This document shows positions 24,512-41,172 of a stretch of 64,000 nt of DNA, piece by piece. The stretch lies in contig JAGBJG010000009.1 of assembly GCA_017934595.1 (NCBI GenBank), positions 126,839 through 190,838 on the forward strand, in the 5' to 3' direction. A program made the position numbers and the translations under genes. Origin of the DNA: Bacilli bacterium (GTDB lineage: Bacteria; Bacillota_I; Bacilli_A; RF39; UBA660). The notes beneath the pieces are model-generated. The model saw only the letters and a list, made by a program, of their open reading frames with translations. It searched no databases and had not been told where the DNA came from. Within the stretch, counting starts at the first letter, position 1; each line of letters opens with the position of its first letter.

Positions 24512-24531
24512 ATATTATTTCTTATATAATA

Positions 24532-24542: not shown

Positions 24543-24560
24543 ACTACTTAAGGTGATTTA

Positions 24561-24635: not shown

Positions 24636-24664
24636 TTTACAAACAATAATAGAGGTGAAGTTTT

Positions 24665-25060: not shown

Positions 25061-25083
25061 GCGTAACATATTTGATAAATTTA

Positions 25084-25116
25084 AAAGAAAGGTTTATAGC
25101 CTTTCTTTACTTTTTT
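25084..25116. terminator. Bidirectional terminator
   Basis: AAAGAAAGG and CCTTTCTTT form a 9-bp stem; T-runs follow on the plus side. Confidence 0.8.
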
Positions 25117-25121
25117 ATTGT

Positions 25122-25511: not shown

Positions 25512-25572
25512 ACTATTCCTCCTGTCCGTTTATTATTATACCATTTATTAGATTAAATGCGAAATTTTGATA

Positions 25573-26934
25573 TTAACTATTGGATGTTTTATTACCTAAT
25601 TCATCTAATCTTTGTTTTAATCTAATATATGCAATTTCTCTCATTTGCTCAGCTTTTGTTGATTTTACATATTTTATTCCTTCTACAAATTGCTCGTAAA
25701 GAAATACTTTTCTAGGATCATTATTATTTGTATATGAATTAGGTTTTGTTATTGCTTTATATAAATCTTCATAGTCTATTATGCTATATTTATCACCATT
25801 TTCATAATTATTTCTTAGCTCCACTTTAGTTATTGAATTATATTTAGGTTTTAATAGATAATAATGAGTGTTTATACCAAATGATTCAGCATAATTATAA
25901 TATGAACTTAATTGGGAATCTTTTTTCTTTTTATTTGATTTCTTTGTTCCATTAATATGTGAATCTATTTTGTTTTCTATAACTATTAAATCTGTATCAC
26001 TTTGTAATAATATATCTATATGATTATCTTCTCTTGATATTTTAAATTCCTTATTAGGTTCTATTGTATTATCTGTATGTTTATTAAGCATTTCTATAAA
26101 GTTAGTAAGTAATTCTTTATCTCTACTTAAGAAGTATGCAATTTGATTAGATGTTGAATCTTCTAAATTTGTTCGGTCACATATAACAGCTAAACATTGT
26201 TCATCTGTTTTAGGAAGCTCTATAGTGTTTTCTACTACTTCTTTTTTATATTCTGATTTAACAATTTGATCTAATATTGTTAAATCTTTATCTCTTGAAT
26301 AGCATAAATTTCTACTTCCTGTAAGATTACATCCAAGATTAATTATAAAAATATCGTTTTCATTATCCTTTGTATGAACTTTCTCTAAATCCTGTGTAAC
26401 TTCTTCACTGTTATTTTTTTCAAAGTAAAAGTGAGTATTTTGATTTGGAATATAAAGAGCTTCAGCGATAAAACTGCATAGATGTGCTTTGCTATCATCA
26501 AATACTTTACCGAGAAATTTACCCGAGAAGTTCACATTTTCCTTTTCATATTTAGATCTTTCATTTATAGTTCCTGTGAGTTTTTTAGAATCATAGAAAG
26601 TAGGTTCATTTATATAGGTATTTGTTTTCTTATCTAATACCTGAGCAACCTTTGATATAGCAATTAATTCATAATAATTATTATCACCATATGTAGTTTC
26701 CATAACATGTAAAACATATTCAGTTTTTTTAGCTGCATCTTTGCCACGCTCGCCATATGGATTAATATATACTAATCTTTTATTACCAAATTTACTTCCA
26801 TTATCATCTGTTTTTATGAAGTTAATCATTTCATTACCTAAGTTATAAATTAGATATGATCCAGTAAATATTTTATTGAATGCATATATATAATTTGGTT
26901 TTTCTTTTTCCTTTTCCTTTTCATTATTGCCCAT
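25573..26934 (-). CDS. PD-(D/E)XK-like nuclease domain protein
   Basis: The 453-residue protein has a C-terminal half containing HIDILLQSDTDLIVIENKI, a classic D...ExK nuclease core, then a Gln-containing helix (SQLSSYYNYAES). This matches PD-(D/E)XK superfamily proteins such as PDDEXK_4-type genes. The N-terminal 230 residues are not recognised. The start has a charged repeat (EKEKEKEK). SD AAGGAGTG. It could be a defence nuclease or a repair protein; which one cannot be told here. Confidence 0.65.
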   Translation of the reverse strand: MGNNEKEKEKEKPNYIYAFNKIFTGSYLIYNLGNEMINFIKTDDNGSKFGNKRLVYINPYGERGKDAAKKTEYVLHVMETTYGDNNYYELIAISKVAQVLDKKTNTYINEPTFYDSKKLTGTINERSKYEKENVNFSGKFLGKVFDDSKAHLCSFIAEALYIPNQNTHFYFEKNNSEEVTQDLEKVHTKDNENDIFIINLGCNLTGSRNLCYSRDKDLTILDQIVKSEYKKEVVENTIELPKTDEQCLAVICDRTNLEDSTSNQIAYFLSRDKELLTNFIEMLNKHTDNTIEPNKEFKISREDNHIDILLQSDTDLIVIENKIDSHINGTKKSNKKKKDSQLSSYYNYAESFGINTHYYLLKPKYNSITKVELRNNYENGDKYSIIDYEDLYKAITKPNSYTNNNDPRKVFLYEQFVEGIKYVKSTKAEQMREIAYIRLKQRLDELGNKTSNS

Positions 26935-27033
26935 AAAATCACTCCTTTAAGATATTATACCATAAATAATGTTGATTAATATGCTGTAATTAATTTTAGA
27001 ACATGGTAAGATGTTTTTGATAGGAGGTACGAT

Positions 27034-27366
27034 ATGTTTCTAAAAGATACAGGTGCTGATGTAACTGAAGATGAATTTAATAACATTATTCTTCCTTTTG
27101 ATAATAAAATTCATAATTATTTACAGCAAGAAACTATTCCAACTTTTTGTGCATTCTATATTGCTGAAGGATTTAGAACAAGTAGTTTATTTGAAAATTC
27201 ATACAATGTCTACTTAAATGAAGCACTCGACTTATTTAATGATTTTCCGAAAGATTTAGAAAGCATTAAAGCTACTACTACAAAATTGTTAAAAGAAAAA
27301 TATAGACTTGAAGTAATTGCAGATAATCCCCTACAACTTAAGGAGGTTGAAGAAAGTGATTCGTAG
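27034..27366 (+). CDS. Element hypothetical protein, paralogue A
   Basis: SD AGGAGG. The 110-residue helical acidic protein has the plan (D-E-F)..PF....I..Y......FIAEGFRTSSLFENS. The next gene is a diverged tandem copy (similar YIASGYNMSALFEGS). Function unknown. Confidence 0.6.
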   Translation: MFLKDTGADVTEDEFNNIILPFDNKIHNYLQQETIPTFCAFYIAEGFRTSSLFENSYNVYLNEALDLFNDFPKDLESIKATTTKLLKEKYRLEVIADNPLQLKEVEESDS

Positions 27367-27682
27367 TGATTTTGATATAAGTGATGAAGATTTCGATAAG
27401 ATGAATAAACCATTTGAGGAAGCAATAGATAATTATGTTAAAAATAACTTTATAGATGAGTATATGGCTTACTATATTGCTTCAGGGTATAATATGTCTG
27501 CTTTGTTTGAAGGAAGTCTTAACGGTGTATTTAATGCTGCAATAGATGATCTTTGTTCTATTCAATATGGTAGTAAAGAAGATATAGAAAAATTAAAACA
27601 ATTGTTGAAAGAAAAATATAATTTGATACTTAGAAGTGATACAAGATTAGAAATTGAAGAAATTAAAAGGACCGACAATTAA
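27356..27682 (+). CDS. Element hypothetical protein, paralogue B
   Basis: AAGGAGG at 27339-27346 is 9 nt from GTG 27356; earlier in-frame starts are too close to or within the SD. The 108-residue protein is a tandem duplicate of the previous gene (shared layout: YYIASGYNMSALFEGSLN against FYIAEGFRTSSLFENSYN). The start overlaps the stop of paralogue A. Confidence 0.6.
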   Translation: MIRSDFDISDEDFDKMNKPFEEAIDNYVKNNFIDEYMAYYIASGYNMSALFEGSLNGVFNAAIDDLCSIQYGSKEDIEKLKQLLKEKYNLILRSDTRLEIEEIKRTDN

Positions 27683-27945
27683 TGTTGATCCTGTTTTTCA
27701 TCTTCTACATCTTCAAATAATTTTGATAATGGTATATTAAGAACTTGTGCAAACTTATACACTGTCCCAATACTAGCTGTCTGATATACTGACTCTGATT
27801 CTAGATTTTTTATAAAGCTTAATGCATATAAACTTTTATCACTCAATTGTTGCTGTGTAAGTCCTGCAGCCTTTCTATATTTTTTTAAGTTTTTAGCAAG
27901 AATAATATATGCATAGTTTTCATCAGTTTTTACTTTATCGTTCAT
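27679..27945 (-). CDS. XRE family HTH protein
   Basis: The 88-residue protein has LAKNLKKYRKAAGLTQQQLS and an HTH up to VLNIPLSKLF. ATG 27945 follows AGGTGAT; upstream GTG/ATG starts overlap the SD. It is the best candidate for the element repressor that would act on the TGTGATATA sites. Its end overlaps the convergent paralogue B by 4 bp. Confidence 0.8.
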   Translation of the reverse strand: MNDKVKTDENYAYIILAKNLKKYRKAAGLTQQQLSDKSLYALSFIKNLESESVYQTASIGTVYKFAQVLNIPLSKLFEDVEDEKQDQH

Positions 27946-28020
27946 GCACATCACCTAATACAATTATCTCAATAATTTGCCTAAAATAAGGTATGCTATT
28001 CATAGACCTTTATTGAAATT

Positions 28021-28029
28021 TGTGATATA
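28021..28029 (+). promoter_or_regulatory. TGTGATATA site upstream of the T5orf172 gene
   Basis: TGTGATATA overlaps a -10-like TATACT and lies about 20 bp before the SD (GAGGTG). It is the third copy of this motif in the element. Confidence 0.4.
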
Positions 28030-28050
28030 CTTTTATTTGAGGTGAAGTTT

Positions 28051-28686
28051 ATGAATGAATCATATCCTAATCGAGGTTATATTTATATTTTCAAGTGTAT
28101 TGTTGGCAGCGGATCGTGTGTATGTAAAATTGGTAAGACAAAACATTTTCATGACAAAAATGATAGACTTGAGCAACATGGAAGAACATTGTATTATGGG
28201 TTTGTCCCATATACAGAGTTTTTATCTGGCTCACCAATAGCTACAGGCTTTGAAGTTAAAGATTATAATAAAGCAGATAGACTGGTTAGAAAACAATTTA
28301 AAGATAGACAATTTGCTGGAATAGAAATATATAACGTTGATTATGATGAAGCTGTTGAAGAACTTTATAATTTTTTAAAAAATAATGATCAATTTATTAA
28401 TTTGATTGAAGATAATTATAGCCAATATAGTTTTCTTAATAAAGCAAAGATATCTAAGAAGCAATTTGAAGATATTAAGAGTGAAATCTTAAAGAAATAT
28501 AAAAATAAATTACCAGATGAATTACTTGATATGCTAAGAGAAAAGGAAGAATATGAAGAAAATTGTCGCTCACATTACGTTACTGGAAACTATATTGATT
28601 TTCCAGGTAACAAAGTGTTAGATATTCATTACAATAAACCTAAGCGAACTGAGTTATTAAATAAACTTAAGGATATACTAAAATAA
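28051..28686 (+). CDS. T5orf172/GIY-YIG-like nuclease domain protein
   Basis: The 211-residue protein starts with GYIYIFKC, then CKIGKT and RLEQHGRT, the order typical of T5orf172 (GIY-YIG-like) domains found in phage and defence proteins. FKDRQFAGIEIYNVDYDEAVE is the end of the domain. A helical C-terminal region of about 90 residues follows. ATG 28051 is chosen over GTG 28042 because the SD overlaps the GTG. It may be a nuclease or DNA-binding protein. Confidence 0.65.
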   Translation: MNESYPNRGYIYIFKCIVGSGSCVCKIGKTKHFHDKNDRLEQHGRTLYYGFVPYTEFLSGSPIATGFEVKDYNKADRLVRKQFKDRQFAGIEIYNVDYDEAVEELYNFLKNNDQFINLIEDNYSQYSFLNKAKISKKQFEDIKSEILKKYKNKLPDELLDMLREKEEYEENCRSHYVTGNYIDFPGNKVLDIHYNKPKRTELLNKLKDILK

Positions 28687-28701
28687 ATATAAATGGTGGT
28701 G

Positions 28702-30063
28702 ATGAATTTGAAAAGAAATAATGAAGGTAAAACCAAACCAAAGTATCCTCTATTGAAATCATTGGGTGGTTTCATTCTTTTAATTATATTTATGGAAACA
28801 TTTGATATGATAGTTAAATGGTTCTTTCAAGTTTTATTTACAGGTTCTATTAAAATGATTATGTTTGATATTGAACATTATCTTATTGATATAATAGGCT
28901 TTGGTGGTGTGATACTAATTTTAGTTGATAATTTTACAGGGAAACAAATTCTTAAAAATATGTTTAAGAAGATATGGAATTTCTATAGAAATTTTAAGGT
29001 TTATTGGATATATCATGTTATTATCATATTAGTTTTGTCAGGTTTAATAATTTATAGTCAGTTTAATTCAACTAAATTATGTGGAACTGATGGAGATATT
29101 TACTATTGTGCAACTAATGAAGAAATTGAATGTGATGATGAAGATTTAATACCTGTTTTTGATAAGAAAAGTTACAAATGTGTTAGTGATGATATATTTA
29201 GACATGATTATAAACATGAAGAATATGATTATATTTGTACCGAAAAATATAATGCTGGAACTATTGAACAAAATGAAGGCTTGATTGAAGCCGAGAAAGA
29301 ATGTTTATATAACAAAATAACAGCTGAAGCAACAACAGTTATAAATGATATAAAGAAAGAACTACCAAGTACATATGATGTTAGAAATAAGGTCACAATT
29401 AAAGCAGGAGATCAAGGCAATTCAAATACTTGTTATTTATGGAGTGTTACAAAGGCTTTAGAGATATCTGCACAATTGAAAGGTATCGATTATCAATTTT
29501 TATTAGATTATGAAAAACAAATAAATAATGTTGAAACATTTAATCCATTAGATGGAGGAACAAGTGATGCATTGTGCTTTGATGATGAATGTAGTTCTAT
29601 TCCTGGAAAGCAAAAATATATTAATATTGTTGATCTAGCACAATCATTTTATAATGAGGATTCACAAGACAACAAATACTATCCTGAGTTCTCTACTGAA
29701 TTTAAGAAGTATTATAATGCATATCTAAGCCTTTCTAATAATCATAATTTATTAAATGATTCTAATTTTATAGTTAATTCAGATGAATATTTTAATATTA
29801 TGACTAAGTTTATTATAATGAAGTATGGATCATCATTTATTTTAACAACCGATGATAACAAGTATATAAATCCTATTGTAGGTCACCAAATGACAATTAT
29901 CGGATGGGATGATTCTAAACAAGCTTGGTTGGCACTTAATTCATGGGGTAACTCATGGAATAAAGGTGGTCTAAATTCAAATGGTGATGGTACTACTTGG
30001 GTTAAATATTCAGATAAAGGTTGGAGTACAGGTATCGGAACTATAGAATTGATAAATAAATAA
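28702..30063 (+). CDS. Membrane-anchored papain-like (C1) cysteine peptidase
   Basis: There are about three hydrophobic segments in the first 125 residues (SLGGFILLIIFMETFDMIV, IDIIGFGGVILILV, IYHVIIILVLSGLIIY). A Cys-rich stalk follows, then a papain-like domain: LPSTYDVRNK, QGNSNTCYLWS with the catalytic Cys, GHQMTIIGWDD with the His, and LNSWGNSWNKGG with the Asn. All three catalytic positions are present. The domain should face outside. ATG 28693, ATG 28702 and TTG 28708 are all possible starts. It is an unusual cargo for a sigK element; the substrate is unknown. Confidence 0.8.
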   Translation: MNLKRNNEGKTKPKYPLLKSLGGFILLIIFMETFDMIVKWFFQVLFTGSIKMIMFDIEHYLIDIIGFGGVILILVDNFTGKQILKNMFKKIWNFYRNFKVYWIYHVIIILVLSGLIIYSQFNSTKLCGTDGDIYYCATNEEIECDDEDLIPVFDKKSYKCVSDDIFRHDYKHEEYDYICTEKYNAGTIEQNEGLIEAEKECLYNKITAEATTVINDIKKELPSTYDVRNKVTIKAGDQGNSNTCYLWSVTKALEISAQLKGIDYQFLLDYEKQINNVETFNPLDGGTSDALCFDDECSSIPGKQKYINIVDLAQSFYNEDSQDNKYYPEFSTEFKKYYNAYLSLSNNHNLLNDSNFIVNSDEYFNIMTKFIIMKYGSSFILTTDDNKYINPIVGHQMTIIGWDDSKQAWLALNSWGNSWNKGGLNSNGDGTTWVKYSDKGWSTGIGTIELINK

Positions 30064-30104
30064 TGATTTACTATAACTAATGTAATATGAAGTTTGTTTT
30101 AAAA

Positions 30105-30113
30105 TGGTATAAT
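30105..30113 (+). promoter_or_regulatory. Extended -10 promoter
   Basis: TGGTATAAT lies 20 bp upstream of the SD of the gene at 30133. Confidence 0.6.
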
Positions 30114-30132
30114 GTTATAGGAGGTTATATTA

Positions 30133-31038
30133 ATGTTTAAAGATATTAAAATTAAGAAGATTGAAGCGTCTGTACCTTATGATGTTCCAGTAACATCTAT
30201 AGCTTCTCTACCTGATAGTGGTAAGGCTACTTTAGAGGTATATTTCTCTTCTAAAAGTGCATATGAGGTTGATGGCAAGAATGTTGTTGTTTTAGATATT
30301 ATGGATAATAGTGCTGGAATGAAAGCTATTATGCTTATTGATAGTTTTAATAATATTGTTGATGATATTAAATTTGGATTAAAATATAGAATAGCTGGTA
30401 TTGTATCAATTGTAGATGGTGACGATGATGAGTTACCTTTCTTAGATAATGTTAAAGGTAACAAGGTTTTCTTTATAGGTGCCTTACAATGTTATAGTGA
30501 TACTTTCTTAGGTGTTGATATAGATGAATTTAATATCAATTTAAACCTTCAAGAGCAATATGATCTTGTTTTAAAGTATAGTGATTATTTGAAAGATGTT
30601 GACTTTAACCAAATAAAAGATATGAAAGTATCTTGTTATGATGAATTTGTATGTTTATTAGTTGATGGAACTTTATTTGTTAATGGTGTTAAGCAACACG
30701 ATAATATTAATATGATACATTATATTGATAATCATTCTATTATAGCGATTGGTAATAATAATACAATTACTTGTGTAACAAAGAAAAACATTTCTGGTGC
30801 TGAATTTTTAAATAATAATAATTATGAATATAAAAAAATAATAACAAATGAGTTTGGTATTGCTGCATTAACCTATGATGGTGTTGTTATATATTTTGGA
30901 GATTTGTATTCATGTGTAATTGATTATTCATTATACGTTGATGTAGATGATATTGAAGATGCTGGTAATGGTGATATAACTATTATAAAGAACAATAAGA
31001 AACACTTGTTATTTCATTCTGATGAAAGTATAAAATAG
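30133..31038 (+). CDS. OB-fold plus propeller-like protein, paralogue A
   Basis: The 301-residue protein has an N-terminal 130 residues resembling an OB nucleic-acid-binding barrel (ATLEVYFSSKSAYEVDGKNV, then LKYRIAGIVSIVDG), as found in PolC-like or RecG-like OB domains. The C-terminal half has short beta repeats (FVCLLVDGTLFVNG, IAALTYDGVVIYFG) like RCC1-type propeller blades, though too few for a full propeller. A second copy follows. SD TAGGAGG. Function is unknown; single-strand DNA binding is one guess. Confidence 0.55.
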   Translation: MFKDIKIKKIEASVPYDVPVTSIASLPDSGKATLEVYFSSKSAYEVDGKNVVVLDIMDNSAGMKAIMLIDSFNNIVDDIKFGLKYRIAGIVSIVDGDDDELPFLDNVKGNKVFFIGALQCYSDTFLGVDIDEFNINLNLQEQYDLVLKYSDYLKDVDFNQIKDMKVSCYDEFVCLLVDGTLFVNGVKQHDNINMIHYIDNHSIIAIGNNNTITCVTKKNISGAEFLNNNNYEYKKIITNEFGIAALTYDGVVIYFGDLYSCVIDYSLYVDVDDIEDAGNGDITIIKNNKKHLLFHSDESIK

Positions 31039-31065
31039 TAGATCTACTGGTCTACTATTTTTTTT
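31032..31065 (+). terminator. Intrinsic terminator
   Basis: AAAATAGTAGA and TCTACTATTTT form an 11-bp stem with an 8-nt loop and a T-run. Confidence 0.85.
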
Positions 31066-31108
31066 AATAACGTTTTTTCGTGCTTTAATAGACCATTATG
31101 TGTATTTA

Positions 31109-31117
31109 TGGTATAAT
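31109..31117 (+). promoter_or_regulatory. Extended -10 promoter
   Basis: TGGTATAAT lies about 17 bp upstream of the SD AAGGAGG of the gene at 31146. Confidence 0.65.
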
Positions 31118-31145
31118 TAATATAGTTTGATAAGGAGGTTTTTAT

Positions 31146-32114
31146 ATGAAAGATATAGGAATAAAAGAGATAAAAACTAATATACCTAATGATGCATTTG
31201 TTTCTCATATTGAAGGAATAATTGGAAATGTTAAGAATGTCATTTTTGAAGGTTCTTTTAGTAATATGCATGTTTATGAATTAGAAAAAGGTATGATAGC
31301 TTTATTTGATTTTACTGATAAAACTGGTACTATTCCTGCATTAATGTTTGGAAGTAGAAATAAAAATTTTAAGGATTTTTTAGAAAGTATTATTATGACA
31401 CATACATATAAAGTTCAAGGTAATGTACGTCTTGTAGAGGAAGCTGATGAACAATTACCTTTCAGTAAAAATCTATTAAATAAAAATATTTTAGCTATTA
31501 CTGCTATAGACGATTTAGCAGATACAAAATTATTTGGTGTAGACATAGTTAAATTATATAATTACGATGTATCAAAGGCATATAATTTTGTAAAAGATAA
31601 TACTGATTATTTAAATGATATATCAATTGATGAAGTTAAAGATATAGAATTTTCTGCTACTTCAGACATTATTATTTTATTAAATAATGGTGATGTCATT
31701 TTAAATGGTGAGTTAAAAGTTAATAATATAAAACTATTAGTATTTTTAAGTGGTCTTTCTATTTTTGGGATAAGTAATGAAAATCAAATTATTCCAATTA
31801 TAGGTTCTAATTATTCGTATAGTTTTATCAATAATAATAATTATAAATATAAGAAGATATTAATTAATCCATTAGTTATTATTGCTCTAACCAATGAGAA
31901 TAATATTAGATTGTATGGTACTGTTTGTGACGGAGCAATAGATTCTAATAGATTGATTGATGTAGAAGATATTGGTTATATAGATGAAAATGATGATATT
32001 GTAGTAATAAAAGATAGTAAGCCTTATTCATTATTTTATGAAAATGATTATTCAAATGATGTTCCTGAAGTTATGATAGAAGGAACATTAAATGATGTTA
32101 ATATTGTTGAATAG
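31146..32114 (+). CDS. OB-fold plus propeller-like protein, paralogue B
   Basis: The 322-residue protein has the same domain order as the gene at 30133 (compare KDIGIKEIKTNIPNDAFVS with KDIKIKKIEASVPYDVPVT). The C-terminal part keeps the N-N-N-N-Y-x-Y-K-K-I motif seen in both. Each copy has its own promoter and terminator, so they can be expressed separately. Confidence 0.55.
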   Translation: MKDIGIKEIKTNIPNDAFVSHIEGIIGNVKNVIFEGSFSNMHVYELEKGMIALFDFTDKTGTIPALMFGSRNKNFKDFLESIIMTHTYKVQGNVRLVEEADEQLPFSKNLLNKNILAITAIDDLADTKLFGVDIVKLYNYDVSKAYNFVKDNTDYLNDISIDEVKDIEFSATSDIIILLNNGDVILNGELKVNNIKLLVFLSGLSIFGISNENQIIPIIGSNYSYSFINNNNYKYKKILINPLVIIALTNENNIRLYGTVCDGAIDSNRLIDVEDIGYIDENDDIVVIKDSKPYSLFYENDYSNDVPEVMIEGTLNDVNIVE

Positions 32115-32142
32115 ATAGATTAATTTAATCTGTCTTTTTTTT
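32113..32142 (+). terminator. Intrinsic terminator
   Basis: AGATAGATTA and TAATCTGTCT (one G-U) are followed by a T-run. Confidence 0.75.
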
Positions 32143-32293
32143 GCCTTAATAAGTCGTATAAAATAAATCATTTGATTTCGTTTATATTAGAAACTTGCAC
32201 GAAATACGTTGCTTTTTACTCAAATTTAAGTGATTTATATAAATGAAATGTGAAAGATGTTTTCTTTTATATTTTAGAAATGAGGTAATTTAT

Positions 32294-32899
32294 ATGGAAA
32301 GCAAAGTATGGGGATATTGTAGGTGCAGCACCAATGAGCTTAAACAGGATGTTCAGTACCAGATTGATGCATTAATGGATAAGGGGTTAGATGTTTCAAA
32401 TATTAGATATGAGTATATTTCTGGTAGGAAGGAACATAGACCTGTCCTTGATGCATTATTTGAAGAAATGAATGAAGGTGATACCTTAATAGTTACTGAT
32501 ATTACTCGTTTATGTAGGAATACGAAGGTTCTGTGCGAAATAATCGATTTAATTATTGCAAAGAAATTTAGGCTTATTGTTGGTAGCATTGATATTGATT
32601 GTAGGAATGGAAGTTTAGATCCTATGATCGAAGCAATGTTGAAGGTTAATGGGGTTTTTGGCGAATTGGAAGCTAAAAATAAAAGATTTCAAATAAAATT
32701 AGGATTAGCTAGTGCGGTAAGCAAAGGTAAAAAATTAGGACGTCCTACAACTTCTTATAATGATATACCTAAAATATTTATGCAGTATTATCCAAAATAT
32801 AAAAATGGTAGCTTAAATAAGATGGCATTTGCTAGGGTTACTCAATTATCCTATCCTACTATTTATAAATATTTGGGTATAGTCGAAAATTCAAAGTAA
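32294..32899 (+). CDS. Small serine recombinase (resolvase/invertase family)
   Basis: The 201-residue protein has an N-terminal catalytic domain with the active Ser in YCRCST, the TDITRLCRN segment and the E-helix, and a C-terminal HTH (LNKMAFARVTQLSYPTIYKYL). This is the size of resolvases and invertases, distinct from the large recombinase in the same element. It may resolve dimers of the excised circle. The region upstream (32143-32293) has no clear res-type repeats. SD GAGGT. Confidence 0.85.
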   Translation: MESKVWGYCRCSTNELKQDVQYQIDALMDKGLDVSNIRYEYISGRKEHRPVLDALFEEMNEGDTLIVTDITRLCRNTKVLCEIIDLIIAKKFRLIVGSIDIDCRNGSLDPMIEAMLKVNGVFGELEAKNKRFQIKLGLASAVSKGKKLGRPTTSYNDIPKIFMQYYPKYKNGSLNKMAFARVTQLSYPTIYKYLGIVENSK

Positions 32900-32976
32900 G
32901 GAAGCTATAATTTTTAGTAAGGTTATATTCTTTCTTCTTTTTTTATGATAAAATAATTAGTTGAGGAGGAATAATT

Positions 32977-34230
32977 ATGCTAGAAGTCCTAAAAGAAATG
33001 CAAAAGCAAGGTATTTTTAAGTTATTACCTAACAATGATTTGGATATCGCTATCAGCAGATTTAGTAGTTCTGCAGATATTAATAAGGTATATGACTCTA
33101 TCCAAAAATATTTAAAACATTTATCTAGCGAATTATCCTATAAGCATAATGTAGATTTAGCTAGAACGTTAAGCGGATTTGAAGACAAATTTTCAGATGA
33201 GATGTTTGATATGACTTATACTTGTAAAGAACATCTTAATGCTGTGTATCAGAAAAATGTGAAATTTGATAAGTCTCATAAAGAAGGGTCTTTGGGTATA
33301 GAAATGTTTAATTCTACTTTCACTTTAGAAGAAAGAAAATTATTAAAGTTAATTAATCATTATTACATTTCTCTAAGTAATAAGGAGAGCTTCAATGATA
33401 GTTACTTCTTCATTCCTATAGAATCATTAAGACTTATTTTCCCAAAAGTCAACAATATAAAGTTGAAAGAGAAGATAATTGATACATGTAATCAATTAAG
33501 TAGTAAGACTATTTATTGGGATTTGAGTAAGACTGGATATGTAAAGAAACTTTCAAAAGATAATTTATGTACTGGTATTAAAGAGAAGATTGTAGATATT
33601 AATATTTTATATCTACCTAAAAAGAATAAGAATGGTGTTAATGGTGAGGCTACTGAGATTAAAGGTGTTATTTGCAGAATTACAAAGTTTATGAAATTAA
33701 GACGACGTGGTCTTAAACAAATATCTAATCGTTTCCCAATTAATGCTTTGAAAGCAAATTATCTTTCATTTATAGTTTCCGAGAAAATAGATTATCATTT
33801 AAATATGATTAAGCAAGGAACTAAGGAGCAAAAGAAGGATGCTAACTACAGCGTGAATTTAAGAAATTTATTAGATAGTATATATTTATATAAGAATAAT
33901 AAAGTGCAGTCAGATACTTACTTATATCAAATAATGAACGAAGTTAATTCAAAAGCCAATATTTGTAAAATATTTGAAGCAATTATTACTTCACTATGTA
34001 ATTTATCCAATAATATAGAGTTTACACCATCATTAATAGTTCAAAAGAAGAAAATAGATTTAACTAGATACATCAGTGACTTAAAAGATGCTTCAAACTC
34101 GAATGAAGTATTCAATGTAATAGATGAATTATATGAAGAAATTGTTAAAGTAAGTAACACACACTTCAATCAGGCTGAGGTAATGAAGTTGATCAGAAAT
34201 GGACATATATCTTTAATATTAGATTTCTAG
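32977..34230 (+). CDS. Putative replication initiator (Rep-like winged-helix protein)
   Basis: The 417-residue protein includes a central segment in the style of Rep_3-like plasmid initiators: FTLEERKLLKLINHYYISL, then a strand-turn FFIPIESLRLIF and a second helix pair ending LSSKTIYW. The C-terminal half is helical. Its position, next to a structured non-coding region and a DnaB-like helicase, supports a replication role. The sequence match is weak, and other DNA-binding roles are possible. SD GAGGAGG. Confidence 0.45.
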   Translation: MLEVLKEMQKQGIFKLLPNNDLDIAISRFSSSADINKVYDSIQKYLKHLSSELSYKHNVDLARTLSGFEDKFSDEMFDMTYTCKEHLNAVYQKNVKFDKSHKEGSLGIEMFNSTFTLEERKLLKLINHYYISLSNKESFNDSYFFIPIESLRLIFPKVNNIKLKEKIIDTCNQLSSKTIYWDLSKTGYVKKLSKDNLCTGIKEKIVDINILYLPKKNKNGVNGEATEIKGVICRITKFMKLRRRGLKQISNRFPINALKANYLSFIVSEKIDYHLNMIKQGTKEQKKDANYSVNLRNLLDSIYLYKNNKVQSDTYLYQIMNEVNSKANICKIFEAIITSLCNLSNNIEFTPSLIVQKKKIDLTRYISDLKDASNSNEVFNVIDELYEEIVKVSNTHFNQAEVMKLIRNGHISLILDF

Positions 34231-34296
34231 TGTACTATTAATTTCGACTTTTAGACTATTATGTTTTAAAAGTAGATTATTTAATTTTTTAAATGC

Positions 34297-34330
34297 AAAA
34301 GTTGTCGAGTTTTCTCGATGACTTTTTTTC
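34297..34330 (+). terminator. Intrinsic terminator after rep-like gene
   Basis: AAAAGTTGTCGAG and CTCGATGACTTTT pair around a TTTT loop, then a T-run. Confidence 0.8.
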
Positions 34331-34340
34331 TTATATCTTT

Positions 34341-34435
34341 AGATATTAAGCCCTCAACAAACCCTTAAGGGGTTTCTTGACTTAATGGTAACTATTCAGT
34401 AGAATAGTATACCAGAAGTTGAGGGATTAATATCT
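34341..34435. other. Three-way-junction structured region (RNA or replication origin)
   Basis: An outer helix pairs 34341-34358 with 34418-34435 (17 of 18 positions, across AGATATTAAGCCC and its partner). Inside are two hairpins: 34359-34375 (AAACCC/GGGTTT) and 34387-34413 (GGTA/TACC plus ACTATTC/GAATAGT). It sits in the 330-bp gap between the rep-like gene and the helicase operon, after a terminator. The rest of the gap (34436-34560) shows no reading frame with an SD. Confidence 0.6.
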
Positions 34436-34560
34436 ACTTCTTTCGAAGAAATTGTTCCGCGGTTGTTCTGCAATATGGCAAATACAGCTCCTTTTTAAAT
34501 TATATGTATTATTTAGCTGTCGCCGTAATTTTAATCATTAAAAAAGAAAGGAAGGAAATT

Positions 34561-34638
34561 ATGATTAAAAGACAGAACTTTGGTAATGTAATTACCGCAA
34601 ACAATTTTAATAGAAAGGAGGAAGACTTCTATGTTTAG
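34561..34638 (+). CDS. Leader peptide, 25 residues, coupled to the helicase gene
   Basis: SD GGAAGG precedes ATG 34561. The small frame ends inside the start of the helicase gene and covers its SD, so it may control helicase translation. It contains GGTAAT and ATTACC, a 6-bp inverted repeat at 34582-34596. Confidence 0.4.
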   Translation: MIKRQNFGNVITANNFNRKEEDFYV

Positions 34639-35719
34639 GATACCAGATTCAAATGGTACTTCTGTAGTTGTTAATGAAATCTATGAAGATGGTTTCAATA
34701 TAACAGCAACTAAGTACATGAATAAGTCTATCAAAACTTTTAAGAGACCAATTTTGGAAAGTTATTTCACTAAGGCTAAAAGAATTGTTATTGAAGATAT
34801 TGATGAAGAAGTAATACCAACAGGAATCAATTCTTTAGATGAAGTACTTGGTGGCGGCCTTAAAAATGGTTTGTTTGTTATCGGAGCTAATCCTGGTATG
34901 GGTAAAACAAGTTTAATGTTGCACATTGCAATTAATTTAGCTTTAAAGAAGAGACATACATTATTTTTTAGTTTAGATATGTCCGATATTCAATCTACTA
35001 TAAGATTGTTATCTAATACATCTTATAGATTTGAAGATTTAGACAATATGTCAATTAATGATTTATCTAATCCAAGGAAAATATATAGTGGTGATAAACT
35101 AAATGATAATGTAGAAAGAATTTACAAGAAATTTCATGAAGTTAATGGGTATATCAATGTATTATCTATACACGAAGATGTTTTGGGTAAAGTTGATAAT
35201 AGTGTCACTTATGTAGAATCGGTAGAAAAAGCAATTAAGAATTTTAGGCAGTATTTAAAACAAACTCCAGTAGTTGTTATCGATTTTTTGCAACTGCTTC
35301 AAAACCAGCCTACGTCTTCTTATAGAGATGAGTATGATGGTGAAATAACCGTAAAATCGTATGATAGAAGATTAGAAATGGATAAGGTTATTGAGCAACT
35401 TAAGAAATTATCTTCTGTTTATAAGTTACCAATAATTGTTATAACATCTACTAATCGTTCATCCTATACTAAATCAAATGGTTATGATAATAGTGATTAT
35501 GATATTGGATTTAGTAAAGAAAGTGGTAACATTGAGTACATAGCTGATGTACTTATTCGTTTAACTTCGAATGATGATGCTCCTACTGTATTTGGAGGTC
35601 CTGAACAAAAGGTTGTTAATCTCAATATCGTTAAATCGAGATTTGGTTTAGCGCAGAAAACTATTCCGTTAACATTTATTCCGGAATATGCATTTTTTAG
35701 GGAAGAAACAAGTCAATAG
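34631..35719 (+). CDS. DnaB-like replicative helicase, C-terminal (RecA-like) domain only
   Basis: The 362-residue protein has TGINSLDEVLGGGLKNG, Walker A GANPGMGKTS, Walker B VVVIDFLQLL and later ITSTNRSSY and ESGNIEYIADVLIRL, the order of the DnaB C-terminal ATPase. The N-terminal DnaB domain that contacts primase is missing. It could load onto an element origin or be a RecA/KaiC-like ATPase of another kind. SD AAAGGAGG. Confidence 0.8.
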   Translation: MFRIPDSNGTSVVVNEIYEDGFNITATKYMNKSIKTFKRPILESYFTKAKRIVIEDIDEEVIPTGINSLDEVLGGGLKNGLFVIGANPGMGKTSLMLHIAINLALKKRHTLFFSLDMSDIQSTIRLLSNTSYRFEDLDNMSINDLSNPRKIYSGDKLNDNVERIYKKFHEVNGYINVLSIHEDVLGKVDNSVTYVESVEKAIKNFRQYLKQTPVVVIDFLQLLQNQPTSSYRDEYDGEITVKSYDRRLEMDKVIEQLKKLSSVYKLPIIVITSTNRSSYTKSNGYDNSDYDIGFSKESGNIEYIADVLIRLTSNDDAPTVFGGPEQKVVNLNIVKSRFGLAQKTIPLTFIPEYAFFREETSQ

Positions 35720-35816
35720 ATGTGAATCTGTTGTATATTTCGTAGTAACGATTTATTAATCGAATTTGTAGTAATTAAATACATCAAGTTTCATAAGATT
35801 AATAAGGAGGTTATAG

Positions 35817-36005
35817 ATGAAAGTCATTGTTAACTTCCCTATAGAAAATGAAGCAATAAGTGAACTTGAAAATAGAACTGCTGAGTTTCATTCAACACTA
35901 GTTATAGAGTCAATTAAGCAACTTAAAATTGGTGATGAAGATAAAGAAAAGGTACTCAAATTGCTACTTGAAAAGTTAAAGTCTAGTAGTAAGACTAATG
36001 GTTAG
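35817..36005 (+). CDS. Small element protein, 62 residues
   Basis: SD AAGGAGG precedes ATG 35817. The protein has a beta-strand start and an amphipathic acidic/basic helix. It lies near the element end, where recombination directionality factors are often found, but nothing in its sequence proves that role. Confidence 0.5.
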   Translation: MKVIVNFPIENEAISELENRTAEFHSTLVIESIKQLKIGDEDKEKVLKLLLEKLKSSSKTNG

Positions 36006-36020
36006 CTATTTTCAAAAGAT

Positions 36021-36051
36021 AAAAGTGTATGATTTATTTCATACACTTTTT
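36021..36051. terminator. Bidirectional terminator
   Basis: AAAAGTGTATGA and TCATACACTTTT form a 12-bp stem with a TTTAT loop, between the small plus-strand gene and the minus-strand double-HTH gene. Confidence 0.85.
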
Positions 36052-36540
36052 AAGTTTTTTAAATTTTTCTCTAGATATATGGCTGCATCCTAATTCCCAT
36101 CTTCTAACGGATGTGTCACAAACTCCTATTAAATCGCCAAACTTTTGCATACTAAGATTTTTTTGTTTTCTGATTTGTCGTATTTTTTCACAAGGATCAT
36201 CTAAAAGAAAAGCAATATATTCATCATTAACTATTAATTTATCTTTAATATCTAGTTCCTCGATTATACCTTTAATTAATTTAATATCTACTAATTTCAT
36301 TTCTCTGTTTTCAATATGGAATAGTGCATCTCTAGAATATCCAAGTTTAAGACTTAGATCTTCTTGTTTAACATTAGCTAATCTACGATAATATTTTATT
36401 TGCTCACCAATACTAGCATTCTTCTTTAAAGGTTCTACATTCCATATAGGTGGTACTTTTATTTTAACTTCAGTTTTAATAGAAGGAAGTGTCTTATTCA
36501 ACAATTTTTCCAACAGGTGTATATTGCATTTTCGATACAT
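36034..36540 (-). CDS. Double-HTH protein at the element end
   Basis: The 168-residue frame has two XRE-like helix-turn-helix units (KYYRRLANVKQEDLSLKLGY; QIRKQKNLSMQKFGDLIGV). The only ATG (36540) lies in sigK DNA, out of the sigK frame, and has no SD. In the excised circle the same frame is continuous with the end of the recombinase: TGC AAA joins TGC AAT ATA. So its natural form may be the C-terminal part of a longer recombinase. Confidence 0.7.
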   Translation of the reverse strand: MYRKCNIHLLEKLLNKTLPSIKTEVKIKVPPIWNVEPLKKNASIGEQIKYYRRLANVKQEDLSLKLGYSRDALFHIENREMKLVDIKLIKGIIEELDIKDKLIVNDEYIAFLLDDPCEKIRQIRKQKNLSMQKFGDLIGVCDTSVRRWELGCSHISREKFKKLKKCMK

Positions 36541-36857
36541 TTAGCAGCATATGTAGTTATTCTAGTACCTGCTTTAGGAGAATATGAATCAACTCCTTTT
36601 ATAAGACCAATTGTACCTATACTAAGTAAGTCGTCCATATCTTCTTTTTGATGATCATATTTCTTAACTATATGAGCTACTAATCTAAGGTTATGTTCAA
36701 TTAATTTATCTCTAGCTATAGGATCACCTAACTTAGCTTTTCTCACACATTCTTCTTCCTCATCCTTAGGTAGGGGATCAGGAAATATATTATTAGAATA
36801 TGCAGCTGTAAATATATAAAAATCTTTAAATAGAAATTTCAATATTCTTTTAAACAT
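36498..36857 (-). CDS. sigK: sigK 5' segment (N-terminal half of pro-sigma-K, SpoIVCB-like)
   Basis: This segment encodes a hydrophobic pro-sequence (about the first 17-20 residues: FKRILKFLFKDFYIFTAAY), then FPDPLPKDEEEE and sigma region 2 with HNLRLVAHIVKKY and LLSIGTIGLIKGVDSY. True sigma-K sequence ends at codons ATC GAA plus the AA core (36531-36529); beyond it the frame runs 10 codons into the element and stops. SD AGAGGTG precedes ATG 36857. The pro-sequence implies processing by a SpoIVFB-like protease encoded elsewhere. Compare the C. difficile sigma-K, which lacks a pro-sequence. Confidence 0.93.
   Translation of the reverse strand: MFKRILKFLFKDFYIFTAAYSNNIFPDPLPKDEEEECVRKAKLGDPIARDKLIEHNLRLVAHIVKKYDHQKEDMDDLLSIGTIGLIKGVDSYSPKAGTRITTYAAKCIENAIYTCWKNC
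36507..36530 (-). other. Attachment site at sigK 5' side (AA core plus element arm)
   Basis: On the minus strand, sigK codons TGTATCGAA are followed by the core AA (36530-36529) and then the element arm TGCAATATACACCTG with TTGGAAA. It mirrors the arm at 21541-21562. Confidence 0.8.
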
Positions 36858-36970: not shown

Positions 36971-38311
36971 ATTAAGAAGTTATTTTTGATTATTTGTATG
37001 TTTTGTTTTATAGGAGTAGATGCTAAAGAATATTATTCAGAATATGGTAGTTTTAGTAAATGGGATACTAATTATGTAGAAAAAGATGAATTAACAGATG
37101 TAGAAGAAAAGAGGTTATATAAATATTATCATGAAGATATAATAGGTGATTATTATTTAGAAGGAGAAGCTCCAGATGGTTATACTTTAGATAAGTCTAA
37201 ATTTAAATATAGTAAATATAGTTCATATACTAATGAAGTTCCTCAAGTTATAAATGGACGTATTATAGAAAGTAAGGAAGTATTAGAATATCAAAGGATG
37301 GTACCTATATCATCAATTTTTATATATAACTTTAATAGTGCATTAGATATATCAGAAATAGATATTAAAGATAGTAATGGCAATGATATAAATTTCGATA
37401 TAAACTGTACTAACTGTAGTAGATTTTTTTCAGACAGTTTAAATAATAATTCTATATATGATTATAATTATTCTAATATTGATTCTAATATTATGATAAC
37501 TTTAAGAAAAGAATTATATTACGATGATATTAATGTTGATATATATCTATATGATACTTTAGCTAATCTAAAAGCGTTTGATATAGCTTTTCTATCTAAA
37601 GATGAAGATATTATTTTATTTAGTAATTTTAGAGAATATTTTAATTTAGATGATGTGCAAGATATAAAAAAATATACATTAAATTCTTCTAATATGATTG
37701 TTACTAATAAATGGAATAAAACTACTAGTAAAACGATAGATAAGTATACAAGAGTTATTTCTAATTATTCATATAGATATAGAGATTTACTTTATTACTA
37801 TTATAAAAAAGATATAACCTATAGTGATTATCTAGAAAAACCTACTAAGTATTATCCAAATCAAACTGAAGAATATATTACTTATTATAGATATAGGACT
37901 AGAGAAAAAGTTTTATATGATGAATTATTAAATGACTATAAATCTAATAAATTAGTTATTACTAATTTAAATAAAGATATTGAATTACTTAGATTAGAAA
38001 ATAGAAAATATATAGATGATTATAATAACTATATTAGTGATTTAAATGATAAAAATTTAAAAATAAATGAATTAAATATATCATTAGAAAATAATAAATT
38101 ATTATTAGAAAATAAAGAATTAGAAAAAAATAAAATAACTAAAGAATTTGAAAATGAATTATTAAATCTAAAAATGGAGGAAGAAACTAGGGAAGTAAGA
38201 AGTGTACCTTTATTAAAGATAGGTGATAACTATATTTATATATTACCAATTATATTTTTAATATTAATACTATCATTATTATTTATACTTAGAAAGAAAA
38301 AGAAAAACTAG
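36971..38311 (+). CDS. Secreted or anchored coiled-coil protein, unknown
   Basis: The signal peptide is IKKLFLIICMFCFIGVDA. A middle region with a Cys pair (INCTNCSRF) follows, then a long coiled coil (about residues 320-400, rich in Leu, Asn, Glu, Lys) and a C-terminal membrane helix with KKKKN, so the bulk faces outside. AAAGGAG at 36957-36963 points to ATT at 36968 or 36971 as the start; no ATG/GTG is in place, and TTG 36986 has no SD and would cut the signal. It sits between sigK and spoIIAA and may have a sporulation role. Confidence 0.65.
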   Translation: MKKLFLIICMFCFIGVDAKEYYSEYGSFSKWDTNYVEKDELTDVEEKRLYKYYHEDIIGDYYLEGEAPDGYTLDKSKFKYSKYSSYTNEVPQVINGRIIESKEVLEYQRMVPISSIFIYNFNSALDISEIDIKDSNGNDINFDINCTNCSRFFSDSLNNNSIYDYNYSNIDSNIMITLRKELYYDDINVDIYLYDTLANLKAFDIAFLSKDEDIILFSNFREYFNLDDVQDIKKYTLNSSNMIVTNKWNKTTSKTIDKYTRVISNYSYRYRDLLYYYYKKDITYSDYLEKPTKYYPNQTEEYITYYRYRTREKVLYDELLNDYKSNKLVITNLNKDIELLRLENRKYIDDYNNYISDLNDKNLKINELNISLENNKLLLENKELEKNKITKEFENELLNLKMEEETREVRSVPLLKIGDNYIYILPIIFLILILSLLFILRKKKKN

Positions 38312-38314
38312 TTT

Positions 38315-38321
38315 TGTCGAA
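38315..38321 (+). promoter_or_regulatory. Spo0A box upstream of spoIIAA-sigF
   Basis: TGTCGAA, in the context TTTTGTCGAATC, matches the Spo0A box exactly. The spoIIA operon is a known Spo0A-activated target in Bacillus. Confidence 0.6.
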
Positions 38322-38372
38322 TCTATTTAACTTAGATTAGAAACATGATAAAGTGGAGAGGAAGGTGATAAT

Positions 38373-38711
38373 TTGCTTGAAATAACAAAGGAGTTTCGCA
38401 AAGGAATTTTATTTGTAAGGCTTAAAGGAGTTTTAAATAAAGATACAGTTTCTTATTTAAATAAAGAAGTTACTAAAGTAGTAGCTGATATGCAATTTCA
38501 GAATGTATTATTCAATGTAGAAGAATTAACATCTATCGATATAGAAGGTGTACATGCTATATTATATAATTATAATTTATGCAAAGATAATAATGGTATA
38601 AGTCTATTATGTGGTGTAAATAAAAGTATTAAAAATATTATTAATCATAACTTATCTTTTATATTTCAAATAAAAGACGAAGAAAAAGCCATCAATATGG
38701 TAGAAATATAG
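38373..38711 (+). CDS. spoIIAA: SpoIIAA-like anti-anti-sigma factor (STAS domain)
   Basis: The 112-residue STAS protein begins LEITKEFRKGILFVRLKGVL. In B. subtilis SpoIIAA frees sigma-F by binding SpoIIAB, and is switched off by phosphorylation of a Ser in the DSSG motif. Here that motif is DIEG (SIDIEGVHAIL), so the phosphorylated Ser is absent. TTG 38373 follows AAGGTGAT. The sigma factor gene starts 8 bp after its stop, with no room for spoIIAB. Confidence 0.8.
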   Translation: MLEITKEFRKGILFVRLKGVLNKDTVSYLNKEVTKVVADMQFQNVLFNVEELTSIDIEGVHAILYNYNLCKDNNGISLLCGVNKSIKNIINHNLSFIFQIKDEEKAINMVEI

Positions 38712-38719
38712 GTGATATT

Positions 38720-39361
38720 ATGGATATAAAATTTATAAATGATAATAAAAATTTGATATATAGTATAGCTAATTATTATAGAGGATACGCGAATATAGAA
38801 GATTTATTTCAAGTTGGTTGTATAGGCTTAATAGAGGCATATAATAATTATGATTACAATAAAAATACCAAATTTAGTACATTCGCATATCCATATATAT
38901 TGGGTAGAATAAGTGAATATGTAAGATGCGATAAAGATATTAAAATATCAAAAGATATATATTCATTAAATGGTAAGATAGAAAAAGTAAAAGCTATGTT
39001 ATCACAAGAGTTAGGTAGAATACCAACTGATGAAGAAGTAGCTAACTATTTAGATGTTGATCCATATAAATATAGTGAAGCAGTCAATAGTATGAATCCT
39101 ATACAAAGTCTTGATTATGAATATATGGATATGTCTTTATATGATGTTATTAAAGATAATATGGATATTGAAACAATAGTAACTTTAAAAAATGAATTAG
39201 ATAAATTAGATCCTATTGATAAAGAAATAATAATATCAAGATATTTATATGATTTAACACAAATGGAAATAGCTGAGAAAATGAATATGAATCAAGTAGC
39301 TATATCTAGACGTAGTAATAAGGTATTAACTAAGTTAAGATCAAATTTAGAGTATAAATAA
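38720..39361 (+). CDS. sigF: Sporulation sigma factor, sigma-F type
   Basis: The 213-residue sigma-70 family protein has region 2 with NLIYSIANYY and DLFQVGCIGLIEAYNNYD then FSTFAYPYI, region 3 (KAMLSQELGRIPTDEEVANYL), and region 4 HTH (LTQMEIAEKMNMNQVAISRR). The position between spoIIAA and spoVA genes identifies sigma-F rather than sigma-G. It is shorter than B. subtilis SigF (about 255), mainly at the N-terminus. SD AGGTGAT. Confidence 0.85.
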   Translation: MDIKFINDNKNLIYSIANYYRGYANIEDLFQVGCIGLIEAYNNYDYNKNTKFSTFAYPYILGRISEYVRCDKDIKISKDIYSLNGKIEKVKAMLSQELGRIPTDEEVANYLDVDPYKYSEAVNSMNPIQSLDYEYMDMSLYDVIKDNMDIETIVTLKNELDKLDPIDKEIIISRYLYDLTQMEIAEKMNMNQVAISRRSNKVLTKLRSNLEYK

Positions 39362-39398: not shown

Positions 39399-39845
39399 AT
39401 GGATGAAAATAAGTATAGTATATTAGTAAAAAAACATACACCTAAAGAAGATGTATCAAAAAATGTGTTTAAAGCTTTTATAGGTGGTGGGATTATGGGA
39501 TTACTTGGACAAGGACTTATAGATATATATTCATTTTTGTTTAATGTTTCTACTAAGGAAGCAGGAATATATATGATTGTTACTTTAATATTTTTAGGAT
39601 GCTTATTCACATGCTTAGGATGGTTTGATAGATTAGTTAATTTTTTTAGATGTGGATTAATTATTCCTATTACAGGATTTGCCCACGCTATGCAGTCAGC
39701 TACATTAGAGTATAGGCGTGAGGGATTAATTACAGGCATAGGTACATGCATGTTTAAATTAGCAGGATCAGTAATTGCATACGGAATTATAAGTGCTTAT
39801 ACATTTGGGGTTATAAGATTAATTATATTAGGGGTGTTAAAATGA
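39399..39845 (+). CDS. spoVAC: Stage V sporulation protein AC
   Basis: The 148-residue membrane protein is part of the SpoVA channel that moves dipicolinic acid into the forespore. It has about three to four membrane helices and the conserved FAHAMQSATLEYRREGLITGIG. It is followed by spoVAD with a 4-bp overlap. Confidence 0.95.
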   Translation: MDENKYSILVKKHTPKEDVSKNVFKAFIGGGIMGLLGQGLIDIYSFLFNVSTKEAGIYMIVTLIFLGCLFTCLGWFDRLVNFFRCGLIIPITGFAHAMQSATLEYRREGLITGIGTCMFKLAGSVIAYGIISAYTFGVIRLIILGVLK

Positions 39846-40825
39846 ATTTTAAATATAAAAATGTTTATTTAAATGAAACTGCTTTAGTAGCCGGACCTTA
39901 TGAAGCAAAAGGACCATTTGGTAAATACTATGATAAAACATATAATGATTTTTACTTTGGTACTAATTCATGGGAAATGGCAGAATCAAAATTAATAACT
40001 GAAAGTGTATCTATATTACTTAATAAAGCTAAATTAAATAAAGATGATATTGATATACATATATCATCAGATTTATTAAATCAATTAGTAGCTAGTAATT
40101 ATGCAGCTAAAGATATTAATATACCATTTATAGGTTTATATGCAGCCTGTGCGTCATCTACATTAGGTATTATACTTGCTTCAAATATGATTAATAGTAA
40201 GCAAATTAAAAAAGCCATATGCACGGTTAGTAGTCATAATGCTTCTGCTGAAAAACAATTTAGATATCCTGTGGAATATGGTGGACCTAAAAGAAAGACT
40301 ACAACATCAACATCTACTGGTGGATGTGCAGCATTAATATCAAATAGTAAAAGTGGAATAAAGATTGAATCTGGAACTATAGGTAGAGTAGTTGATATGA
40401 ATATTAAAGATGTATATCATATGGGAGCAGTTATGGCACCAGCAGCTGCAGAAACTTTATATGAACATTTAAAATACCATAAAAGGAAACCTAATTATTA
40501 TGATTTAATTTTAACTGGAGATTTAGGTATATATGGTAGAGGAATATTTAAAGACTACTTGAAAGAAAAATATAATATTGAATTAAATAATTATGAAGAT
40601 GCAGGTTCTATTTTATATGGTAATAATAAAAAGATGTATGCTGGTGGATCAGGCCCTGCATGTCTGCCTTTGATATCATATGGATATGTTTTTAATAAAC
40701 TAAAAAATAAAGAATATAAAAAAGTATTATTAATAGCTACTGGAGCATTACATAGTGTAACTATGTGCAACGAAAAAAACTCAATACCAAGTATCGCGCA
40801 TGCTATTAGTTTGGAGGTTATATGA
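39842..40825 (+). CDS. spoVAD: Stage V sporulation protein AD
   Basis: The 327-residue protein has a thiolase-like fold (AACASSTLGIILASN, then GDLGIYGRGIFKDYL). In Bacillus SpoVAD binds dipicolinic acid on the spore membrane. Family motifs VAGPYEAKGPFG and FYFGTNSWEMAE are present. Confidence 0.96.
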   Translation: MNFKYKNVYLNETALVAGPYEAKGPFGKYYDKTYNDFYFGTNSWEMAESKLITESVSILLNKAKLNKDDIDIHISSDLLNQLVASNYAAKDINIPFIGLYAACASSTLGIILASNMINSKQIKKAICTVSSHNASAEKQFRYPVEYGGPKRKTTTSTSTGGCAALISNSKSGIKIESGTIGRVVDMNIKDVYHMGAVMAPAAAETLYEHLKYHKRKPNYYDLILTGDLGIYGRGIFKDYLKEKYNIELNNYEDAGSILYGNNKKMYAGGSGPACLPLISYGYVFNKLKNKEYKKVLLIATGALHSVTMCNEKNSIPSIAHAISLEVI

Positions 40826-41172
40826 TATATTTAAAATCATTTATATTTTGTGGATTAGTATCAGCTTTAGCAGAATTAATTTTATCTAAAACTAAATTAA
40901 CACCAGGTCATATGACAACTTTATTTGTTATAGTAGGATCATTTTTAGATGTCTTTGATATATATGATAAATTAATAGTATGGGCAGGTGGAGGTGCATT
41001 AGTACCAATTACTTCATTTGGACATTTATTAATTCATGGGGCTATGGATATGGCTACTAATTCTAATTTTATGGGATTACTTACTGGAATGCTTAATTTA
41101 ACAGCTGCAGGTATTACTTCAGCTATAATAATATCTTTTTATTTATCATTAATTTTTAAACCAAAAGACTAA
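40822..41172 (+). CDS. spoVAE: Stage V sporulation protein AE
   Basis: The 116-residue membrane protein has PGHMTTLFVIVGSFL and GGGALVPITSFGHLLIHGAM, typical of SpoVAEb. It overlaps spoVAD by 4 bp. spoVAA, spoVAB and spoVAF are not in this operon, as in many reduced spoVA sets. Confidence 0.94.
   Translation: MIYLKSFIFCGLVSALAELILSKTKLTPGHMTTLFVIVGSFLDVFDIYDKLIVWAGGGALVPITSFGHLLIHGAMDMATNSNFMGLLTGMLNLTAAGITSAIIISFYLSLIFKPKD

Follow-up and report, generated by a model that had tools for sequence, protein, structure and literature searches.

A SpoIIAA-like STAS gene directly before sigF in a family of Bacilli in which neither SpoIIAB nor the SpoIIE phosphatase domain was detected

In a family of small-genome gut Bacilli, probably of the order RF39, the SpoIIAB–SpoIIE partner switch has almost certainly been dismantled, while the STAS protein that belonged to it has very probably kept a selected function that does not depend on phosphorylation. 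In other spore-formers, SpoIIAB, SpoIIE and SpoIIAA form the phosphorylation switch through which the set of genes expressed in the future spore is chosen. With the kinase gone, the phosphatase likewise gone from every genome examined for it, and the STAS protein changed yet still under selection, these bacteria must have another way of controlling the onset of spore development. The best overall explanation, which we hold with confidence evenly balanced against doubt, is a derived spoIIA operon in which the STAS protein acts free of phosphorylation, our leading guess being directly on sigma-F. Spore formation by these uncultured bacteria has not been demonstrated and is inferred from gene content only.

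The locus lies in a window of 64,000 nucleotides (the whole stretch of DNA analysed), which comes from a 1.0-Mb draft genome that is 86% complete. The features in and around it are as follows:

36986–38311, + strand: coiled-coil exported protein with a C-terminal membrane anchor, directly 5′ of the STAS–sigF pair; no Pfam match.
38315–38321, + strand: Spo0A box TGTCGAA, identical to the motif and 58 bp upstream of the STAS start.
38346–38354, + strand: putative −10-like element TGATAAAGT, part of a conserved upstream block; promoter function inferred.
38373–38711, + strand: SpoIIAA-like STAS gene, 112 aa, TTG start; PF01740 44.7 bits, TIGR02886 44.1 bits, best Foldseek and profile matches SpoIIAA.
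38720–39361, + strand: sigma-F-like sigma factor gene, 213 aa, ATG start; TIGR02980 160 bits, SigF 154.8 bits, SigG 107 bits, best PDB match 1l0o_C.
39399–39845, + strand: SpoVAC; PF03862 105.9 bits, TIGR02838 150.8 bits.
39842–40825, + strand: SpoVAD; PF07451 389.8 bits.
40822–41172, + strand: SpoVAE (SpoVAEB type); TIGR02839 120.1 bits.

The STAS and sigF reading frames are exactly 8 bp apart within one contig and no GHKL or SpoIIAB gene lies between them in the window, so that the preliminary description was right to report the kinase gene as missing. The same abutment, more frequent than chance would allow, was found in 94 of 109 relative loci without SpoIIAB, with a gap mostly between −41 and +16 bp; in SpoIIAB-bearing relatives, STAS and sigF lie about 400–500 bp apart, with SpoIIAB in the gap. 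Two further SpoIIAB-less loci have a STAS frame without the usual start, and in one (L008/G002), the only sampled relative in which the pair is separated, metK lies between STAS and sigF. An apparent absence of STAS in L009 and L121 was an ORF-calling artefact. SpoVAC and SpoVAD follow STAS–SigF on the 3′ side in about 65 loci. Spacing this tight is typical of co-produced partners, from which we infer co-production. STAS–SigF loci obtained by a search of named genomes came mostly from uncultured Bacilli, Tenericutes, Firmicutes and Erysipelotrichaceae, with one from Candidatus Faecisoma merdavium. Homologues of the upstream exported protein occur in 45 family loci, 9–119 bp before STAS–SigF, with one overlapping it by about 15 bp; the gene perhaps lies outside the operon and its function is unassigned. 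Inspection by eye also placed an FtsK/SpoIIIE DNA translocase-like protein of about 736 aa just 5′ of STAS–SigF in about 16 loci (for example L124:1437–3647).

The predicted structure of the STAS protein (pLDDT 94) gave SpoIIAA as its top Foldseek matches (TM 0.90), the nearest solved structures being SpoIIAA within SpoIIAA–SpoIIAB crystals, and its profile matched B. subtilis SpoIIAA (1auz) with E 6.8e-22. RsbS and RsbV of the sigma-B system belong to the same fold family and are less similar to it than SpoIIAA; unlike theirs, the window's STAS gene has a sigma-F-type gene and spoVA genes as neighbours. The sigma factor, which contains regions 2, 3 and 4, belongs to the SigB/F/G type and scored higher as SigF than as SigG. 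Since both proteins fall below their NCBIfam equivalog cut-offs (114.75 bits for STAS against TIGR02886; 321 bits for SigF against TIGR02885), they are divergent members that are placed by position and best match, not by score. SigF is N-terminally short, as had been pointed out, its alignment to the SigF model (231 positions) beginning only at model position 15. This shortness was rejected as part of the same change, because the sigma factors of SpoIIAB-bearing relatives are often short too (181–265 aa). A column-by-column comparison of SigF proteins with and without SpoIIAB did not clearly show that a contact patch for the anti-sigma factor had been lost.

SpoIIAB was detected in none of 386 family genomes from 150 genera (E ≤ 1e-15), under a search in which the B. 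subtilis control was positive. In a class-wide sample it was present in 48 of 247 genomes, none of them from the family. The SpoIIE phosphatase domain PF07228 was likewise found in none of 37 family genomes, the window's own included, and in all eight SpoIIAB-bearing class-mates in the same genome set. Both genes could in principle be missing merely from draft assemblies or bins, since the window's genome is only 86% complete and sigE and sigG were not found in it. However, STAS and sigF adjoin in a single contig, and SpoIIAB was absent from all 252 family genomes of at least 90% completeness and at most 5% contamination. An artefact is thus refuted for spoIIAB, and we give that explanation next to no weight overall. 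The sigE/sigG gap itself is probably missing sequence; most relatives, the sister species (G001) among them, gave a SigG-like match. The loss of the kinase gene that the preliminary description had noted is real, but it is a property of the family and not special to the window's genome.

The window's own genome gave no match to PF13581 (the SpoIIAB/RsbW-type ATPase), even at E ≤ 1. The SpoIIAB equivalog gave one weak match (G000:C13), which was rejected as SpoIIAB: the short protein carries HisKA (H-box) and HATPase domains and is a histidine kinase of the two-component type, and similar proteins are present in two relatives. A normal spoIIAB and spoIIE elsewhere, together with a second SpoIIAA carrying DSSG, had been named as the result that would overturn the proposal; none of these was found in the window's genome, which yielded only a single STAS protein. 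Short second STAS-like frames (82–94 aa) were seen in three relatives (G002:C43:43274–43498, G017:C6:22235–22468 and G007:C30:16056–16301); they cover only the first 77–84 positions of the STAS profile and one contains a stop.

Other parts of the sporulation pathway were kept. Among the 37 family genomes, sigF and SpoIIR were each found in 35, Spo0A in 34 and STAS in 31, and the two genomes without sigF (G006 and G034) are also the two without SpoIIR. The retention of Spo0A, sigF and SpoIIR, with SpoIIAB and SpoIIE gone, indicates that the line from Spo0A through sigma-F to SpoIIR was preserved and that the partner switch was removed from it. Endospore markers in the window's genome comprise Spo0A, SpoIIR, SigK (in two halves) and spoVA genes.

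We compared the STAS protein with SpoIIAA at the residues that serve the switch. B. subtilis SpoIIAA is phosphorylated at Ser58, the first serine of DSSG (PMC11418112 for Ser58). The corresponding region of the window's protein reads S-I-D-I-E-G, and alignment to 1auz places Ser58 at Ile57 and Ser59 at Glu58. The earlier statement that DIEG replaces DSSG and that this SpoIIAA cannot be phosphorylated is correct for this site. Glu58 was considered as a phosphomimic and rejected, because the alignment and the literature numbering both make Ile57 the phosphosite; the acidic residue is at the neighbouring position. The alignment across relatives that had been proposed bore this out: serine is present at the phosphosite in all 29 SpoIIAB-bearing relatives, as against 3 of 88 SpoIIAB-less family proteins. 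On the SigF tree the serine/non-serine state requires four changes, counting the split from the canonical outgroup, and the serine of the three family members may have been either retained or regained.

The docking face was altered as well. The interface residues E21, D23, F55, S58 and R67 of SpoIIAA (taken from Asp20, Asp22 and Phe53 of SypA and their SpoIIAA equivalents, PMC10120452, and from Ser58 and Arg67, PMC11418112) correspond to positions 20, 22, 54, 57 and 66 of the window's protein, in which the SpoIIAB/SpoIIE docking residues E21, D23, F55 and R67 have become V, N, S and N. All five interface residues were kept in 28 of 29 canonical proteins; none was kept in 50 of the 88 family proteins and one was kept in 34. 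Phe55 was kept in 3 of the 88 and Arg67 in none. Phosphosite and docking face have eroded together in the family's STAS proteins.

A diverged or unrecognised kinase or anti-sigma factor, with a phosphatase, might still phospho-switch STAS or sigma-F from elsewhere in the genome. The family does possess short histidine kinases whose ATPase domains are of the GHKL type, extreme divergence can escape profile searches, and the STAS fold is retained with Asp56 and Gly59 invariant; we also count the phosphosite serine of the three family members against our own explanation. Nevertheless, the serine is gone from 85 of 88 proteins and the docking residues with it, the searches for PF13581 in the window's genome, for SpoIIAB in 386 family genomes and for the SpoIIE domain in 37 were all negative, and the one kinase followed up carries the H-box of a two-component kinase. 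We consider such a hidden switch improbable.

Selection on the two genes was estimated from 11 close pairs, for which the summed dN/dS was 0.09 for STAS and 0.097 for SigF. Purifying selection on STAS is thus as strong as on SigF, which argues against decay, the possibility that sporulation is being lost and that spoIIAB, spoIIE and the phosphosite disappeared at random along with it. Small genomes, the failure to find sigE and sigG in the window's assembly, and the absence of STAS or sigF from some relatives could be taken as signs of decay, but the same state is found in 150 genera, the Spo0A box, SpoIIR, Spo0A and the spoVA genes are conserved, and sigK is intact save for an element with its own recombinase. 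Decay therefore seems very unlikely to us. The preliminary description had suggested rewiring instead of random loss, and the absence of SpoIIAB and SpoIIE, the retention of sigF, SpoIIR and Spo0A, and the purifying selection on STAS all agree with it; the new control mechanism itself is an inference.

Several residues that are ordinary in canonical SpoIIAA are near-invariant in the family's STAS proteins: Glu7, Gly11, Ile12, Phe14, Arg16, Asn48, Cys80 and Glu103, of which Phe14, Arg16, Asn48 and Glu103 reach 98% conservation. By the secondary structure of the predicted model, they lie in the first beta hairpin, in strands three and four and in the last helix. The constraint on STAS has left the side that faced the kinase and now rests on other regions of the protein, where these residues may form a new interface or may instead stabilise the fold. 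The STAS alignment amounts to about 51 effective sequences, far too few for an analysis of coevolution between STAS and SigF.

The STAS gene was itself lost later in some members of the family. Twelve SigF sequences have no adjacent STAS, with at least five changes of state on the SigF tree, one of which accounts for a clade of eight, and no STAS was found anywhere in the assemblies of three STAS-less relatives (G009, G014 and G016). By this reconstruction, STAS was lost and sigF kept in at least four lineages. SigF remained constrained in the STAS-less clade (dN/dS 0.07–0.26), so that STAS is not indispensable for sigma-F everywhere. Its retention in most members together with this dispensability fits a modulator better than an essential holdfast.

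These losses without loss of SigF also bear on a different reading, in which STAS has taken on some partner besides sigma-F, for instance the exported protein encoded upstream or another protein of the septum or membrane, and is merely co-transcribed with sigF. Sigma-F would then be under no post-translational hold; Spo0A-driven synthesis would set its timing, and cell geometry or gene position would give it a compartment bias. In several clades conservation is higher in STAS than in SigF (90% as against 67–69% identity), the constraint on STAS has moved away from the old SpoIIAB face, and a conserved membrane protein gene lies directly 5′ in the 45 loci noted above; each of these fits a partner that is not sigma-F. 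Against it stands the tight adjacency of STAS and sigF in about 95 loci, often with overlap. We regard this reading as the main rival, though one that falls clearly short of an even chance.

Upstream of the pair, a Spo0A box was found within 200 bp of the STAS start in 62 of 93 relative loci, against an expected fraction of 0.023 (2%), and in 18 of 31 SpoIIAB-bearing relatives. The box is part of a conserved block, attCTAgTTTTGTCGAAt.tgTAtaAa...tgtgcTAAAtTa, in which tgtgcTAAAtTa lies downstream of it. Because the loci are related, a nominal probability for the box would overstate its significance; the block is nonetheless evidently conserved. Spo0A-driven transcription is thus, as inferred from this motif, the control layer that was retained.

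A mechanism consistent with our favoured explanation, a derived operon with a phosphorylation-free STAS protein, can be proposed as follows. In the common ancestor of the family, sigma-F would have ceased to be held by SpoIIAB or freed by SpoIIE. Phosphorylated Spo0A (Spo0A~P) would trigger sigma-F synthesis at the level of transcription, and STAS, probably made from the same message as sigF, would work unphosphorylated as a co-produced protein–protein regulator; both steps are inferred. As a leading guess, for which there are no binding data, STAS would bind sigma-F or the RNA polymerase holoenzyme directly and tune when and where sigma-F is active. Restriction to the forespore, where activity is itself only inferred, might come from STAS, from another unidentified cue, or from both. 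That STAS acts directly on sigma-F or the holoenzyme is, in our estimate, a little under an even chance, there being no physical evidence of contact. We are more hesitant still about the stronger proposal of a minimal two-protein STAS–sigma-F module throughout the family, in which a former anti-anti-sigma factor would regulate sigma-F directly and independently of phosphorylation, and which would set off cell-specific gene expression with no kinase, phosphatase or partner switching.

Like the B. subtilis spoIIA operon (spoIIAA–spoIIAB–sigF), the locus has STAS followed by sigF, spoVA genes on the 3′ side, a STAS fold and a Spo0A box on the 5′ side, and the SpoIIR signal is kept; the sigma factor is also nearest in sequence to solved sigma-F. 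Unlike B. subtilis, the locus and genome have no spoIIAB or spoIIE, Ser58 is replaced by Ile, E21, D23, F55 and R67 are lost, and SigF lacks an N-terminal stretch. As the defining partner-switch features that were tested are lacking, STAS–SigF is not a member of that switch, although it is descended from the spoIIA system. SypA of Vibrio fischeri (PMC10120452) is comparable as a STAS protein whose presumed target is not an anti-sigma kinase; it acts downstream of its kinase and, unlike the family's STAS, is still controlled by serine phosphorylation, via SypE.

The genes spoIIAA, spoIIAB, sigF and spoIIE have been reported in all spore-forming bacilli and clostridia (PMC3533761, Table 3), and even the streamlined Candidatus Arthromitus retains SpoIIAA, SpoIIAB and SpoIIE (PMC3533761). 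For the order RF39, spoIIAB and spoIIE have been described as reduced or absent in an order-level tabulation of presence and absence, and its spores were predicted to be markedly different in phenotype and regulation (PMC10868615, 2024; seen in part). The scarcity of the two genes in RF39 is thus already known from that source. The portion of it available to us mentions neither an operon of STAS and SigF nor the degraded phosphosite and docking residues, and neither the constraint acting on STAS nor its subsequent disappearance from some lineages. To that extent, and to our reading, four findings are new: the pairing of STAS with sigF in a two-gene operon, the erosion of the phosphosite jointly with the docking face, the purifying selection to which STAS is subject, and its repeated later loss. 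A family with Spo0A, sigma-F and SpoIIR, without the kinase and apparently without the phosphatase, opens to testing the long-standing question of what minimum suffices to confine sigma-F to the forespore. It is also a natural case of a signalling protein that has outlived its kinase and phosphatase and gained new constraint.

Other sigma factor genes in the window's genome and its relatives were noted in passing. In the window, a skin-like element about 15 kb long interrupts sigK, which extends over 21172–36857 in all, with its N-terminal half at 36498–36857 (− strand) and its C-terminal half at 21172–21576 (− strand). A large serine recombinase gene (21518–23281, − strand) overlaps the C-terminal half, and a membrane protein encoded within the element (28693–30063) contains a papain-family cysteine protease domain. 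When sigK was rejoined across the shared AA (36530–36529/21540–21539), the product, CIENEIRMYFRG, matched the intact SigK of a relative (L006, CIENEILMYFRG). The window's genome also encodes a second RpoD-like sigma factor (L166:1072–3639, G000:C15), which is 855 aa long and extends far beyond the sigma region at both the N- and the C-terminus; the same genome also has a sigma-70-like frame (366 aa, G000:C12). In several relatives, too, sigma-like matches fall in frames of unusual length (734–1025 aa).
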